NCBI GenBank assembly: GCA_015056415.1
Contig: SVGJ01000009.1
Span: 1 to 46,043 of the forward strand
DNA: 46,043 bases
From: Clostridiales bacterium
GTDB taxonomy: Bacteria; Bacillota; Clostridia; Christensenellales; Aristaeellaceae
Direction: 5' to 3'
The notes beneath the pieces are model-generated. The model worked only from the letters and a program-made list of their open reading frames with translations. It made no database searches and was not told the DNA's origin. Positions 6,354 to 45,860 of this stretch are shown here, piece by piece. A program made the translations under genes and the position numbers. Position 1 is the first letter of the stretch; the number at the start of each line of letters is the position of its first letter.

Positions 6354-6383
6354 TTGACAAGCCCGCTTCCCTCAATATATAAT
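6354..6383 (+). promoter_or_regulatory. SigA promoter of the MutS2-like gene and its leader
   Basis: Perfect TTGACA (6354-6359) and perfect TATAAT (6378-6383) with an 18-bp spacer. Transcription from about 6390 gives a leader of roughly 240 nt before the MutS2-like start at 6631, far longer than other leaders in this window. Confidence 0.85.
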
Positions 6384-6412
6384 GGATCCATCCTAAATCC
6401 CCGGAGGTAAGT

Positions 6413-6430
6413 ATGTTGTCGGTGCTGTAA
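6413..6430 (+). CDS. Putative 5-codon leader peptide (Met-Leu-Ser-Val-Leu)
   Basis: A textbook Shine-Dalgarno GGAGG (6403-6407) stands 5 nt before ATG TTG TCG GTG CTG TAA, about 23 nt into the predicted transcript. The stop is 17 nt before the first arm of the attenuator-like fold. So strong an SD on so short an ORF in a long leader suggests a regulatory uORF at which ribosome position controls RNA folding, as in antibiotic-responsive attenuators. Translation is inferred, not shown. Confidence 0.5.
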   Translation: MLSVL

Positions 6431-6446
6431 CGGCATGAGCGCGAGG

Positions 6447-6562
6447 CTCGCAGCGGTGGCATGACCGCTTGTTTGCTTATGCGTTTTTGCTCTTTCACAC
6501 AGCCCGATGACCAAGCCTCCGCTGCGGGAACATCCAGCGCGGCCAGTTTGGTCGCGCTTTTT
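6447..6562 (+). promoter_or_regulatory. Attenuator-like leader fold ending in an intrinsic terminator
   Basis: Three mutually exclusive pairings can be drawn. Arm 1 (6447-6459) pairs with arm 2 (6516-6528) over 10 contiguous pairs plus 3 after one mismatch. Arm 2 (CGCTG, 6520-6524) can instead pair with arm 3 (CAGCG, 6535-6539). Arm 3 is also the left side of a terminator: 6536-6544 pairs with 6550-6558 over 9 bp with loop AGTTT, ending in five T (6558-6562). A 1:2 fold would permit termination; a ribosome holding arm 1 open would favour 2:3 and readthrough. I recognise no known riboswitch or T-box consensus. The terminator is clear; the switching is inference. Confidence 0.65.
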
Positions 6563-6630
6563 GCGTGCTGTTTGAGCCATGCCGCTTCCAATTTCCTCAT
6601 GCCGCATCACATCATGAGGAGTCGAGCAAA

Positions 6631-8526
6631 ATGAATCAGGATCACATCACATTGGAATTTCCCCAAATCATCGCACAGATGCAGGAGCTGGCTGTATCCC
6701 AGACCGCCCGTGACGAGCTGGCGCAGCTTGCCCCCAGCATGGAGGAAGCCGTCTGCCGCAGCCGGATGGAGGCCACCACCGCCGCCCGCCGGGTGCTGGA
6801 CGCGGCCGGCTCGCCGCCGCTGGCCATCATGGACGGGCTGGAGGAGTCCGTCAGCGAAAGCGTCATGGGCGGCATGCTCACCCCGGAGCAGCTCGCCGGC
6901 GTGATGAGCTTCGCCGTCAGCTGCCGCCGCATGGAAGCGTACCTTTCCGGCGTGGCGGGACAGAGCGCGGGCATCGCCGCCTATCGTATGGAGCTGCCTG
7001 ACCTGAGCGACCTGTGCCGGGATATCGAAGCCTCCGTCCGGGAGGATAAGGTGTTGGACGAGGCCAGCAGCCTCCTGCGCGACCTGCGCCGCAGGCATGA
7101 GAACCTGGAGACCGCCATCCGTGACAAGCTGAACCGCATCCTGCAAAGCCGCAAGCAATACCTGGCGGACAGCTACATCACCACCCGCGCCGGCCGCTAT
7201 GTGGTGCCTGTGCAGCGCAAATTCCAGAGCGCCTTCGGCGGTACTGCGGTGGACGTCTCCGCCAAGGGAACAACGGTGTTCATGGAGCCCTCCAGCATCG
7301 TTCCCCTGCGCCAGGAGCTGGACAGCGTGGCGCTCATGGCCGATGAAGAAGAGCGCCGCGTGCTTTATGCCCTCAGCGACCGGGTAGCGGAGGCGGAAAC
7401 GGAGATCCGCCGCGGTATGCGCCTGATGACCGAGCTGGACGCGCTGTTCGCCAAGGCCAAGCTCAGCCAGCAGATGGACGCCCGGGAAGTGGAACTCACC
7501 GGTGAAAGGCGCATCCTTTTGCGCAACGCACGCCATCCCCTGCTGAACAGGGAAAAGGCCGTGCCCCTGAACTTCATCGTGGAGGACGCTACCACCGGCG
7601 TGGTCATCACCGGTCCCAATACCGGCGGCAAAACGGTCTGCGTGAAAACGGTGGGCCTGCTGTGCCTGATGGCTCAGTGCGGGCTGCACATCCCCTGCGG
7701 CGAGGGCAGCGTGGTAGCCCTGCGGGACGCTTTCCTCTGTGATATCGGCGACAGCCAGTCCATCACCCAGAACCTTTCCACCTTCTCCGGCCACATGACC
7801 AATGTGATCCGCATCCTGGATCGCGCCAGCCGGGACAGCCTTGTTCTGCTGGACGAGCTGGGCTCCGGCACCGATCCGGCCGAGGGCATGGGCATCGCCG
7901 TGGCGGTGCTTGGCGAATTGAGGCGGCGTGGCTGTCTGTTCCTGGTCACCACCCACTATTCCCAGGTGAAAACCTGGGCGGAGACCACCCCTGGTGTGAT
8001 GGCTGCCCGCATGGCCTTTGACCGGGAGACTCTGGCACCGCTGTACCGGCTGGAACTGGGCAAATCCGGCGAAAGCTGCGCGCTGGACATCGCCAAACGG
8101 CTGGGCCTGCCGGAATGCCTCATCGCCGGGGCGCGGGAGGCGGCCTACGGTACGCCTGCGGGGCAGGAGCCGGCGATGAAGATCCCCCACAGCAGGCTGA
8201 AGCGGTATGTGCCCAGGCAGGAAGCGAATCCCCCTTCCTTTGCCGTGGGCGACAGCGTCAGCATCGCTCCGAACGGGGTGAAGGGCATCGTCTACCGCCC
8301 CGCGGACGATCAGGGCGAGGTCATCGTGCAGGTGCAGGGGAAGAAGCTTGCCGTGCGTCATACGCGACTCACCCTGCTGGTGTCCGCTGACCGGCTTTAT
8401 CCGGAGGATTACGATTTTTCCATCATCTTTGATACGGTGGCAAACCGTAAGGCCGATCATCTGATGAGCCGGAAATTCGACGCGGAAGCCCTGATCATCC
8501 ATCAGGAGGGCCGGATAACTGAGTGA
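6631..8526 (+). CDS. Short MutS2-like ATPase without Smr domain
   Basis: A 631-residue MutS-family protein. The N-terminal ~300 residues form the MutS core/lever region (YVVPVQRKFQ, about 190-199). The ABC-type ATPase follows: Walker A GPNTGGKT (328-335), DIGDSQSITQNLSTFSGHM (371-389) and Walker B LLDELGSGTDP (406-416). Unlike the full-length MutS2 at 22791, it lacks the long charged coiled coil and the C-terminal Smr nuclease-like domain, ending instead with a KOW-like segment (GDSVSIAPNGVKG) and about 60 residues of no known motif. MutS2 proteins act in recombination control and in rescue of collided ribosomes; which role this paralogue has is unknown. The start has GAGGAG upstream and agrees with homologous N-termini. 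It sits alone behind an attenuator-like leader. Confidence 0.88.
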   Translation: MNQDHITLEFPQIIAQMQELAVSQTARDELAQLAPSMEEAVCRSRMEATTAARRVLDAAGSPPLAIMDGLEESVSESVMGGMLTPEQLAGVMSFAVSCRRMEAYLSGVAGQSAGIAAYRMELPDLSDLCRDIEASVREDKVLDEASSLLRDLRRRHENLETAIRDKLNRILQSRKQYLADSYITTRAGRYVVPVQRKFQSAFGGTAVDVSAKGTTVFMEPSSIVPLRQELDSVALMADEEERRVLYALSDRVAEAETEIRRGMRLMTELDALFAKAKLSQQMDAREVELTGERRILLRNARHPLLNREKAVPLNFIVEDATTGVVITGPNTGGKTVCVKTVGLLCLMAQCGLHIPCGEGSVVALRDAFLCDIGDSQSITQNLSTFSGHMTNVIRILDRASRDSLVLLDELGSGTDPAEGMGIAVAVLGELRRRGCLFLVTTHYSQVKTWAETTPGVMAARMAFDRETLAPLYRLELGKSGESCALDIAKRLGLPECLIAGAREAAYGTPAGQEPAMKIPHSRLKRYVPRQEANPPSFAVGDSVSIAPNGVKGIVYRPADDQGEVIVQVQGKKLAVRHTRLTLLVSADRLYPEDYDFSIIFDTVANRKADHLMSRKFDAEALIIHQEGRITE

Positions 8527-22790: not shown

Positions 22791-25145
22791 ATGATGAGTG
22801 AACGTACACTCCGCGTACTGGAGTTTACCAAGATCCGCGACCAGCTGGCCGCCAAGGCGCTGACCCCTATGGGCGCGGAGCGCTGCCAGGCGCTGACGCC
22901 CTCGTGCAATATGCAGGAGGTGCTGGAATGGCAGCAGGAGACCGAGGAGGCCTCCGTGATCCTGACCTACATCGGCAGCCATCCCATGGTGGCCTTTGCC
23001 GACGTGCGGCCCTCTCTGGCCCTGGCCGATAAGGGCGCGACGCTCTCGCCCAAGGCGCTGCTTTCCGTGGCGGAGCTGCTGCGTGCCTCCCGCGCCGCCC
23101 GGGACGCCCTGGTCACCGACCGTCAGAACACCCCCCGCCTGACCCGGAAGGCTCAGAGCCTGTGCGTGCTGCGCCACCTGGAGCAGGATATCACCGACGC
23201 CATCCTTTCCGAGGATGAGATCGCCGACAGAGCCTCCTCCGAGCTGATGAACATCCGCCGCCACCTGCGGGGCGCCACCGAGCGTATCAAGGACAAGCTG
23301 AATCAGATGATCCACAACCCGTCCTTTGCCAAATACCTGCAGGATCCCATCATCACCGTCCGCAACGACCGCTATGTGCTGCCGGTAAAGGCGGAGCACC
23401 GCGGCAGCGTGCCGGGCCTGGTGCATGACCAGTCCACCTCCGGCGCGACGCTCTTCATCGAGCCCATGGCCGCGGTGGAAATGGGCAATGAGCTCAAACA
23501 GTGGGAGCTGAAGGAGCAGGCGGAGATCGAACGCATCCTGGCTGCCCTCTCTGCCGAGGTGGCGCCTTATGCCGCCCAGCTGCGGGAAAACATCGATATT
23601 CTGGCGGAACTGGATTTTATCTTCGCCAAGGGTCTGCTCAGCCGCGAAATGTTCGCTGTCACGCCCAGGCTGAACAAAGAAGGCTATATCAACATCATCC
23701 GGGGCCGCCATCCGCTGATCCCCGCGGACAGGGTGGTCCCCTCCAACCTGTGGATGGGCAGGGATTTCACCACGCTGATCATCACCGGCCCCAATACCGG
23801 CGGCAAAACGGTGACGCTGAAGACGGTGGGCCTGTTCACCCTGATGGCCCAGGCCGGCCTGCAGGTGCCTGCCGATCTGGGCACGGAGCTGGCGGTATTC
23901 GGCCAGGTGTTCGCGGACATTGGCGACGAGCAGTCCATTGAGCAGAGCCTGTCCACCTTCTCCAGCCACATGACCAACATCGTGACCATCATGCGTGAGG
24001 TCACCCCTCATGACCTGGTGCTCTTTGACGAATTGGGCGCCGGCACCGATCCCACCGAGGGCGCGGCCCTGGCCCAGAGCATCCTGACCAGGCTCCTGCA
24101 CATCCGTGTGCGGACGTTGGCCACCACGCATTACAGCGAACTGAAGGCCTTCGCCCTCTCCACCAAGGGCGTGGAGAACGCCTCGGTGGAGTTCAACGTG
24201 GAGACCCTGCGTCCCACCTACCGCCTGTCCATCGGCGTGCCGGGCAAGTCCAACGCCTTTGAGATCAGCCGCAAGCTGGGCCTGCCGGAAAACCTCATCG
24301 ACGCCGCCAAGACGCTGCTCACCAGCGAGTCCATCCGTTTTGAGGACGTCATCGCCAACGCTGAGTATCACCGCCAGGTGGCCGAAAAGGAGCGCGAGCT
24401 GGCGGCAGAGGCCTCCAGAGAGACCACCCGTTTGCGGGATGAGGCCGAGAGGCTGCGCAAGGAAATGGAAGAAAAGCGGGAGACCTCCATGCGCAAGGCC
24501 CGCGAGGACGCCCGCCGCGTGCTGGAGAACGCCCGGCGCGAGGCTGAGAGCATCCTTACCGACCTGAAGAAGATGAAGAAGAACGCTGCGCCTGACAACG
24601 ACGCAGCCGCCCTGCGCCGTCAGCTGGAGAAGAGCATCGACAACCTCTCCGAGGGGCTGGTGCAGAAGGTGGATACCGTCACCGCGCCGCCCAAGACCGT
24701 CAAGCCCGGCGACCGGGTGGATATCCTCACCCTGGGCAGCCAGGGCACGGTGCTCTCCGCGCCCAACGCCAAGGGCGAGGTGGAGCTGCAGGCCGGCGTG
24801 ATGAAGTTCAAGGCCCATATCAGCCAGCTGCGCCTGGTCAAGCAGAAGGAGCCCCAGAAGAAATCCTCCGTCAAGACGCAGACCGGCGCCATGACCCGCA
24901 CCGTTTCCATGGAGTGCGATGTGCGCGGCATGATGCTGGAGGAGGCCATCGCCGCCGTTGACCAGTACCTGAACGAGGCCATCATGGCCGGACTGGGTGA
25001 GGTTCAAATTATCCACGGCAAGGGCACCGGCGTACTCCGATCCGGCATCCAGCAGCACCTGAAGCGCCATATGCTGGTGAAGGAATTCCGCCTGGGCGTT
25101 TACGGCGAGGGCGAAAGCGGCGTGACGGTGGTCACGCTGAAATAA
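22791..25145 (+). CDS. mutS2: Endonuclease / ribosome-rescue ATPase MutS2, full length
   Basis: A 784-residue MutS2. Order: core/lever region (YVLPVKAEHRGSVPGLVHDQS), ABC ATPase with Walker A GPNTGGKT (333-340) and Walker B FDELGAGTDP, a long charged coiled coil (about 520-600), a KOW-like segment (GDRVDILTLGSQGTV) and a complete C-terminal Smr domain (CDVRGMMLEEAI, VQIIHGKGTGVLR). MutS2 limits recombination and splits collided ribosomes. Two adjacent ATGs (22791, 22794) are possible; GGAG lies about 11 nt upstream. It shares the ATPase family with the shorter protein at 6631 but is the standard form. Confidence 0.96.
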   Translation: MMSERTLRVLEFTKIRDQLAAKALTPMGAERCQALTPSCNMQEVLEWQQETEEASVILTYIGSHPMVAFADVRPSLALADKGATLSPKALLSVAELLRASRAARDALVTDRQNTPRLTRKAQSLCVLRHLEQDITDAILSEDEIADRASSELMNIRRHLRGATERIKDKLNQMIHNPSFAKYLQDPIITVRNDRYVLPVKAEHRGSVPGLVHDQSTSGATLFIEPMAAVEMGNELKQWELKEQAEIERILAALSAEVAPYAAQLRENIDILAELDFIFAKGLLSREMFAVTPRLNKEGYINIIRGRHPLIPADRVVPSNLWMGRDFTTLIITGPNTGGKTVTLKTVGLFTLMAQAGLQVPADLGTELAVFGQVFADIGDEQSIEQSLSTFSSHMTNIVTIMREVTPHDLVLFDELGAGTDPTEGAALAQSILTRLLHIRVRTLATTHYSELKAFALSTKGVENASVEFNVETLRPTYRLSIGVPGKSNAFEISRKLGLPENLIDAAKTLLTSESIRFEDVIANAEYHRQVAEKERELAAEASRETTRLRDEAERLRKEMEEKRETSMRKAREDARRVLENARREAESILTDLKKMKKNAAPDNDAAALRRQLEKSIDNLSEGLVQKVDTVTAPPKTVKPGDRVDILTLGSQGTVLSAPNAKGEVELQAGVMKFKAHISQLRLVKQKEPQKKSSVKTQTGAMTRTVSMECDVRGMMLEEAIAAVDQYLNEAIMAGLGEVQIIHGKGTGVLRSGIQQHLKRHMLVKEFRLGVYGEGESGVTVVTLK

Positions 25146-45783: not shown

Positions 45784-45860
45784 TGGTCGAAGTGGCGGGA
45801 TTCGAACCCGCGGCCTTTTGGTCCCGAACCAAACGCGCTACCAAACTGCGCTACACCTCG
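45784..45860 (-). tRNA. tRNA-Pro, anticodon CGG
   Basis: A 77-nt cloverleaf with encoded CCA (45786-45784). Acceptor stem CGAGGTG/CACTTCG (one G-U), discriminator A, D arm GCGC...GCGC, anticodon stem TTTGG/CCAAA with loop TTCGGGA (anticodon CGG), and T arm CGGGTTCGAATCCCG. No promoter is visible directly upstream; a 93-bp repeat abuts the 5' end. Confidence 0.95.

Follow-up and report, generated by a model that had tools for sequence, protein, structure and literature searches.

The window analyzed here is a stretch of 46,043 nucleotides from a Clostridiales bacterium (Aristaeellaceae; contig SVGJ01000009.1). On its forward strand, a gene encoding a short MutS2 paralogue of 631 aa without Smr (6631..8526, with ATG at 6631) is preceded by a leader with several recognizable elements. 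The promoter TTGACA-18-TATAAT (6354..6383) has an 18-nt spacer and 12 of 12 consensus bases. It is followed by a Shine-Dalgarno (SD) sequence GGAGG (6403..6407) and the uORF ATG TTG TCG GTG CTG TAA, encoding MLSVL-stop (6413..6430), both lying within the 5' strand of a helix designated P1, the 3' strand of which is arm X (6499..6521). The segment after the uORF stop, CGGCATGAG (6431..6439), is the 5' strand of a long-range pairing, L1. Next come hairpin P2 (6453..6468), whose loop (6457-6464) is the 5' strand of a second long-range pairing, L2, and a conserved TTGTTTG (6469..6475). A terminator-like intrinsic hairpin (6536-6558) with its U-run occupies 6536..6563. Closer to the gene are CATGCCG (6578..6584), assigned by eye as a possible L1 3' site, and a hairpin CCTCATG...CATGAGG (6595..6619), which contains the L2 site TCATGCC (6597-6603) and masks the SD of the gene, TGAGGAG (6615..6621). 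The initial annotation had described a promoter, SD, five-codon uORF, hairpins and terminator in front of an Smr-less MutS2 relative; all of these are present, with the promoter just 5' of the span it had covered.

The leader (6390-6565) folded at -81.2 kcal/mol (z -4.6), and none of 200 shuffles was equally stable. Comparison with the covariance models of Rfam release 15 (4227 families) matched it to no family. The sole Rfam match of the window at gathering thresholds was a tRNA gene on the minus strand (45787-45860).

The short MutS2 matched TIGR01069 (mutS2) over residues 7-504 with 559.7 bits against a cut-off of 400, and its core and ATPase were homologous to B. subtilis MutS2 (7qv3) over residues 7-503 (E 1.2e-100). 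No Smr domain was detected in the window protein with Pfam, and its other NCBIfam and Pfam matches were to MutS-type models and KamC only. Among 37 short proteins scanned, MutS_V was found in all 37 and Smr in none at E 0.01, and Pfam MSSS appeared, below threshold, in one (the window protein). In an hhalign comparison, a KOW/SH3-like stretch aligned to full-length MutS2 with an E of 3.4e-5 and a probability of 72%. This stretch is followed, in place of Smr (8402-8526), by the tail LYPxDYDFSIIFDTVxNRK, which is nearly invariant in the 37 aligned proteins and is covered by no Pfam match. Because the core and ATPase are present and the C-terminal Smr is absent, the protein was regarded as a paralogue of MutS2 and not as a canonical MutS2.

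A full-length MutS2 is encoded in the same window (ORF 22791-25145), 14 kb downstream. Of 60 genomes, 11 encoded a short MutS2; ten of these also encoded a complete full-length MutS2, and the eleventh (G003) a fragment of it at a contig edge. In the phylogenetic tree the short (33 rows) and full-length proteins (20 rows, all from one order) were split by one branch with an SH-aLRT of 100. In B. subtilis, stalled ribosomes are split by the ATPase of MutS2, and the DLR motif of Smr is not required for this; KOW contacts uS10, Smr and KOW aid recruitment, and deletion makes the strain sensitive to chloramphenicol, tetracycline and erythromycin (PMC10897456). Since the ATPase does the splitting and the DLR motif is dispensable, an Smr-less paralogue could still split ribosomes.

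The leaders of the first ten relatives (L002-L011; proteins 54-100% identical to that of the window) contained the SD, the uORF, P2 and a promoter-like sequence, the promoters being recognized by eye. A covariance model, R1, was built from the SD, uORF and P2. In the genome of the window itself it gave a single convincing match (3.8e-23, the next one at 0.015), and it gave 69 strong leaders among 308 family genomes, with a gap in E-values from 6.6e-8 to 8.7e-4. The genes behind these 69 leaders encoded short MutS2 in 64 cases (51-100% identity), GNAT acetyltransferases in four and a broken short mutS2 in one (L079). In L079 the leader is intact and the gene stops after about 28 codons, reflecting decay or an assembly error. 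Three weak R1 matches, L107, L108 and L109, whose per-genome E-values ranged from 8.7e-4 to 0.015, were excluded; the first two are located inside or next to unrelated reading frames.

A second search, based on the C-terminal region of the protein, detected short MutS2 in 71 of the 308 family genomes, and 64 of the 71 had an R1 leader. In the other seven, two genes were cut by contig ends, one had no readable start and four were divergent (38-49% identity). The four divergent genes nevertheless have short uORFs, namely MSVC, MSASC, MLSLVSVIFN and MSVSIVEKLHN (MSVC and the last two found by eye, the last two pattern-checked). Outside the family, the model R2 detected no leader among 396 sampled genomes from the order and 391 from the class. 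Since R2 scored the window's own leader at only E 1.1e-4 and missed genome G013, which has an R1 leader, absence from these genomes is only weakly supported. A search of viral contigs with the P2 pattern gave no exact match. The TTGTTTG 3' of P2 is conserved in the window and its relatives, and some distant leaders share words of the TTTGTGTAC type 3' of the uORF.

The family uORFs are 4-5 codons long and end in [Ser/Thr]-Val-x-TAA. Among 68 distinct leaders, the stop was always TAA, the third residue from the end was Ser in 47 and Thr in 21, and the next was Val in all 68, encoded by four synonymous codons. The last sense codon occurred in ten forms, and in the 50 leaders analyzed for pairing (below) its second position is the pair column with the most double changes (26, of five pair types). 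The retention of Ser/Thr-Val with varying bases, and the drift of the last residue with pairing kept, therefore argue for a uORF that is translated and constrained as a peptide. On these grounds we infer that the uORF, with its SD between promoter and gene, is translated. A leader responding to amino-acid or tRNA starvation, in which the ribosome would await charged tRNA for Val, Ser or Leu, would account for the retained Val and Ser/Thr. However, the uORFs have no codon run for a single amino acid, Thr can replace Ser, the last codon varies freely, and the short MutS2 gene is not biosynthetic. The starvation leader was rejected on codon grounds and is considered highly improbable.

Pairing of the uORF was analyzed in 50 of the 69 leaders as a 33-pair hairpin consisting of P1 (SD/uORF with arm X), P1b and P2; the structure was derived from the same sequences, which mildly favours it. 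Standard pairs made up 88%, and double changes were found in 20 of the 33 pairs. Double-change cells numbered 98, compared with 30.6 +/- 4.2 after shuffling, where kinship is not fully corrected, and with 15-31 when the partners were slid. In 63 distinct leaders, the SD/uORF paired with its own arm X at -16.6 kcal/mol and with those of other species at -13.6 kcal/mol, a difference reached in 0 of 10000 permutations (uncorrected for kinship). Clade-specific co-changes, together with recurrence in distant genera, are difficult to attribute to shared ancestry alone. RNAalifold missed P1 on the 50-row alignment because the arms differ by bulges, and averaged single-sequence base-pair probabilities recovered it. 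Conserved start and stop codons of the uORF and compensatory changes in the arms had been named in advance as the support to look for, and both were found in the family leaders by the covariance model, the codon table and the double changes. As a correction, the main helix joins the SD/uORF (6402-6430) to arm X (6499-6521) and does not quite follow the three arms listed at that time.

The position of P1 relative to the terminator differed within the family. In MFE folds of the 63 leaders from outside the window's genus, at least six of the last 13 bases before the U-run paired with the SD/uORF in 57. The exceptions to P1 abutting the U-run were L009, L054, L097, L100, L104 and L106; in L054 the arm is lost, and in L106 the terminator is absent while L1 and L2 are present. 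Because the bases up to the U-run pair with the SD/uORF, P1 would itself be the terminator stem in most relatives; leaders from the window's genus have a distinct terminator 3' of P1. The nucleotides of the uORF thus take part, in the relatives, in a conserved structure beside the terminator, and an intrinsic terminator lies between uORF and gene. When the SD/uORF was occluded, the bases before the U-run re-paired elsewhere in 50 of the 63 relatives (MFE). In several family leaders (e.g., L047 and L053), GGGCA of arm X could, as seen by eye, also pair with TGCCC just 3' of it, ahead of another U-run, possibly forming a second terminator.

The L2 pairing was widespread. For the P2 loop, usually RCAUGA, a perfectly complementary stretch of 7 nt or more was present in the 100 nt 5' of the gene start in 51 of 64 leaders, compared with 3.6% of shuffles, and this site was mostly located about 34 nt from the gene start. 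Where the loop is unusual, the site departs in a matching way, such as CACGA with TCGTG in L094 and, read by eye, TGCTGACC with GGTCAGCA in L106, which precedes a GNAT gene. In the window, GGCATGA (6458-6464) lies opposite TCATGCC (6597-6603), inside the hairpin that masks the gene SD. For L1, a stretch of 7 nt or more complementary to the 11 nt after the uORF stop occurred within 110 nt 3' of arm X in 40 of 68 leaders, compared with 5.1% of shuffles, and the pairing occurs in several co-varying versions. In the window, the post-stop segment is complementary to 6596-6604 and partly to 6578-6584. These results suggest that L1 and L2 may provide a second, translational layer of control.

Control could be mainly translational, with the leader hairpin and L1/L2 setting access to the gene SD, the terminator secondary and a ribosome on the uORF still the sensor, as in toiL. 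The conservation of L1 and L2, which extends to the terminator-less L106, is in line with this, as is the location of the window's L2 site in the SD-masking hairpin. However, 57 of 63 relatives have P1 directly adjoining the U-run, and strict terminator-like hairpins precede 33 of 50 distant genes; primarily translational control is therefore judged unlikely. The conserved RCAUGA loop and the unpaired UUGUUUG would also suit a binding site, so that the leader could be a small-molecule riboswitch or a protein-bound autoregulatory RNA (bound, for example, by the short MutS2 itself) with an incidental uORF. The conservation of the loop is, however, explained by its pairing partner, the synonymous Val changes with fixed amino acids favour translation, and the uORF motif is also present at loci without a recognizable P2. 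An RNA sensor of this kind thus appears improbable.

Four of the 69 strong leaders (L075, L099, L102 and L106) precede GNAT genes. Pfam GNAT was found in the three proteins scanned (L075, L102 and L106), and the L099 protein was 64.5% identical to that of L102. Two of the four genes encode proteins of about 600 aa with the GNAT domain near the N-terminus. Three of the four genomes (G085, G087 and G155) also have a short MutS2 with its own leader, and none was found in the fourth (G023). Other genes such as ABC-F were sought behind the 69 strong leaders and none was found, GNATs being found instead. In another family of the order, a GNAT gene is located directly 5' of the short mutS2 in an operon-like arrangement (L141, L142 and L143), and no uORF was visible before the GNAT gene in these three pairs. 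The GNATs behind the leader and those beside short mutS2 are similar to one another and both distantly similar to E. coli YjhQ; the L106 protein showed 30% identity to YjhQ over 169 residues (61 bits), with E-values that refer to eight sequences only. Because GNATs form a broad superfamily, this similarity was taken as a lead only. It may hint at a connection between translation stress and YjhQ-like acetyltransferases beyond Proteobacteria.

The uORF is not confined to the family. Named genomes were scanned with the window protein and the best 80 of 561 loci were kept, including loci of Lachnospiraceae, Oscillospiraceae and Desulfosporosinus; removal of seven from the same family and four with short upstream regions left 69 loci. 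A wide motif for a short uORF with an SD (M-L-x-V/A, M-(L/E)-S/T-V and close variants of these), defined after the peptides had been seen, was present before 50 of these 69 short-MutS2 genes from other Clostridia, compared with 4.5% of shuffled upstream regions; it was not found at the other 19 loci of this set. In the controls, it preceded 8 of 238 other ORFs of the same loci and none of 19 full-length mutS2 genes. Examples include MLNVSVMVIFN (Desulfosporosinus), MLIVSVCGR, MLSVVRMENQDN and MTSIVRREDSAN. The 33 genes with a strict terminator-like hairpin belong to these 50 motif-bearing loci, where uORF and arm paired modestly better than in shuffles: the mean z was -1.61, and 11 of the 50 fell into the lowest 2%. 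At an E of 2.3e-5 or better, R1 was convincing in only seven of the best 80 loci, and six of these belong to the same family; what is shared outside the family is therefore the uORF and the layout, and not the whole RNA.

In plasmid and phage collections the relatives were all distant (at most 39% identical among the matches listed), and six of them were examined. Their uORFs were MLGVVLN (Cytobacillus), MSVNVLN and MTTGVLN (Paenibacillus), MSVIVLL (Acetoanaerobium, Clostridium-class), MSVVGI (an Enterococcus record, frame assigned by eye) and MSVAGI (a Listeria record); MTTGVLN deviates from the motif. The link between uORF and short MutS2 thus extends to other Clostridia and a few Bacilli records. 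Two unannotated phage-labelled records with short mutS2 (L236 and L238) may be host DNA. A chance arrangement, with promoter, short ORF and terminator merely co-located, could be imagined since terminator-like sites as a class were at chance level in the scan (4 found versus 3.9 expected). For conservation it is refuted by the conserved and co-varying leader, the uORF and the short-MutS2 association, and it is hardly credible as an explanation.

Judged by its architecture and conservation, the leader is real and conserved and probably acts as a translation-linked attenuator. The comparative data show a conserved uORF, conserved and co-varying pairings and a wide association with short MutS2, and the co-occurrence of such a leader with a relative of a ribosome-rescue factor in many bacteria therefore suggests that the protein is made when ribosomes stall. 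Our preferred reading, to which we assign a probability of roughly 75%, is a ribosome-mediated attenuator that controls a dedicated paralogue of MutS2 without Smr, MutS2 itself being a ribosome-splitting factor. The translation-sensing attenuator proposed earlier is supported in this respect by the conserved uORF, the covariation and the short-MutS2 link, with the revisions that the wiring differs, P1 itself usually being the terminator, and that a second, translational layer absent from that proposal may exist.

In the proposed mechanism, free-running ribosomes would complete the uORF before arm X is transcribed, the SD and uORF would then pair with arm X, and transcription would terminate at the U-run. 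In most relatives P1 would act as the terminator, and in the window's genus it would leave the separate terminator intact. If a ribosome were arrested on the uORF, P1 would be blocked and RNA polymerase would read through. Stalling would thus be the signal, with ribosome-targeting antibiotics as presumed inducers and with this direction of the switch. In the readthrough RNA, L1 and L2 could pair with two sites just 5' of the gene SD, the second in the SD-masking hairpin; such pairing may open or tune translation. The short MutS2 would then split or clear stalled ribosomes, as MutS2 does. In equilibrium folding of the window leader, the terminator formed with p 0.95 in the free RNA and p 0.66 when a ribosome occupied the start codon, and ribosomes in mid-uORF or at the stop codon left it at 0.93 and 0.95, respectively, so that the switch predicted for the window's own leader is weak. 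The gene SD was calculated to be hidden in all three full-leader states tested, the L1/L2 pseudoknots being outside the scope of the program.

The leader attenuators of Erm and ABC-F genes combine a uORF, alternative hairpins and a ribosome-related output. The present leader shares the uORF and alternative hairpins with them, but differs in downstream gene, leader peptide and RNA. HflX is a GTPase family unrelated to MutS2, and no HflX homology was detected in the window protein with NCBIfam and Pfam. The HflXr of Listeria (rli80 leader), as described in part of PMC6310831, resembles the present system in being an extra splitting-factor paralogue behind a small ORF and a terminator with ribosome-dependent transcription attenuation, the last being proposed for the present leader. 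However, the small ORF of HflXr has 14 codons and an RLR motif (same part of PMC6310831), whereas those described here have 4-5 codons and Ser/Thr-Val. Since both protein and leader peptide differ, the relation to HflXr is one of analogy and not of membership.

In E. coli, the stall-sensing uORF toiL controls topAI-yjhQP (parts of PMC12121999). It is likewise a short uORF that pairs along its length with a control hairpin, and its operon includes the YjhQ acetyltransferase, which is distantly similar to the GNAT behind the present leader. However, toiL acts by occlusion of the RBS and Rho (parts of PMC12121999), whereas intrinsic terminators, Bacillota and a MutS2 relative are involved here. 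Chloramphenicol, as quoted in the same paper, arrests ribosomes after Ala, Ser or Thr; with Ser/Thr in front of Val, the present uORF would be expected to respond to this drug, and arrest on the start and stop codons would, as with toiL, point to retapamulin, tetracycline and erythromycin. Compared with B. subtilis MutS2 (7qv3; PMC10897456), the core and ATPase are homologous, but the present protein lacks Smr, has a different conserved tail, falls on a separate side of the tree and has its own leader. The RNA is absent from Rfam, and a search of literature titles and abstracts, outside which most subscription papers lie, found no description of this class of target gene, either as an attenuator before a MutS2 relative or as an Smr-less family. 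The term 'mutS' is absent from the main text of PMC2965389.

A wider proposal, held tentatively and at a little under even odds, is that the Smr-less MutS2 paralogues of Clostridia and some Bacilli form a drug-inducible ribosome-clearing system, the counterpart of HflXr. The old leader peptide M-[L/E]-[S/T/I]-V and its variants would be a general stall sensor, and the two-level RNA device of one gut family, with its two long-range pairings, would also drive YjhQ-like GNATs of the same response. If true, there would be a second, unrelated lineage of inducible ribosome-rescue factors beside HflXr, common in gut Clostridia and present in some Bacilli, and the leader would offer a sequence handle for finding the natural translation stress met by the carrier bacteria. 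B. subtilis likely has ribosome-splitting factors beyond MutS2 (part of PMC11633108), and the short MutS2 may bear on these additional factors.
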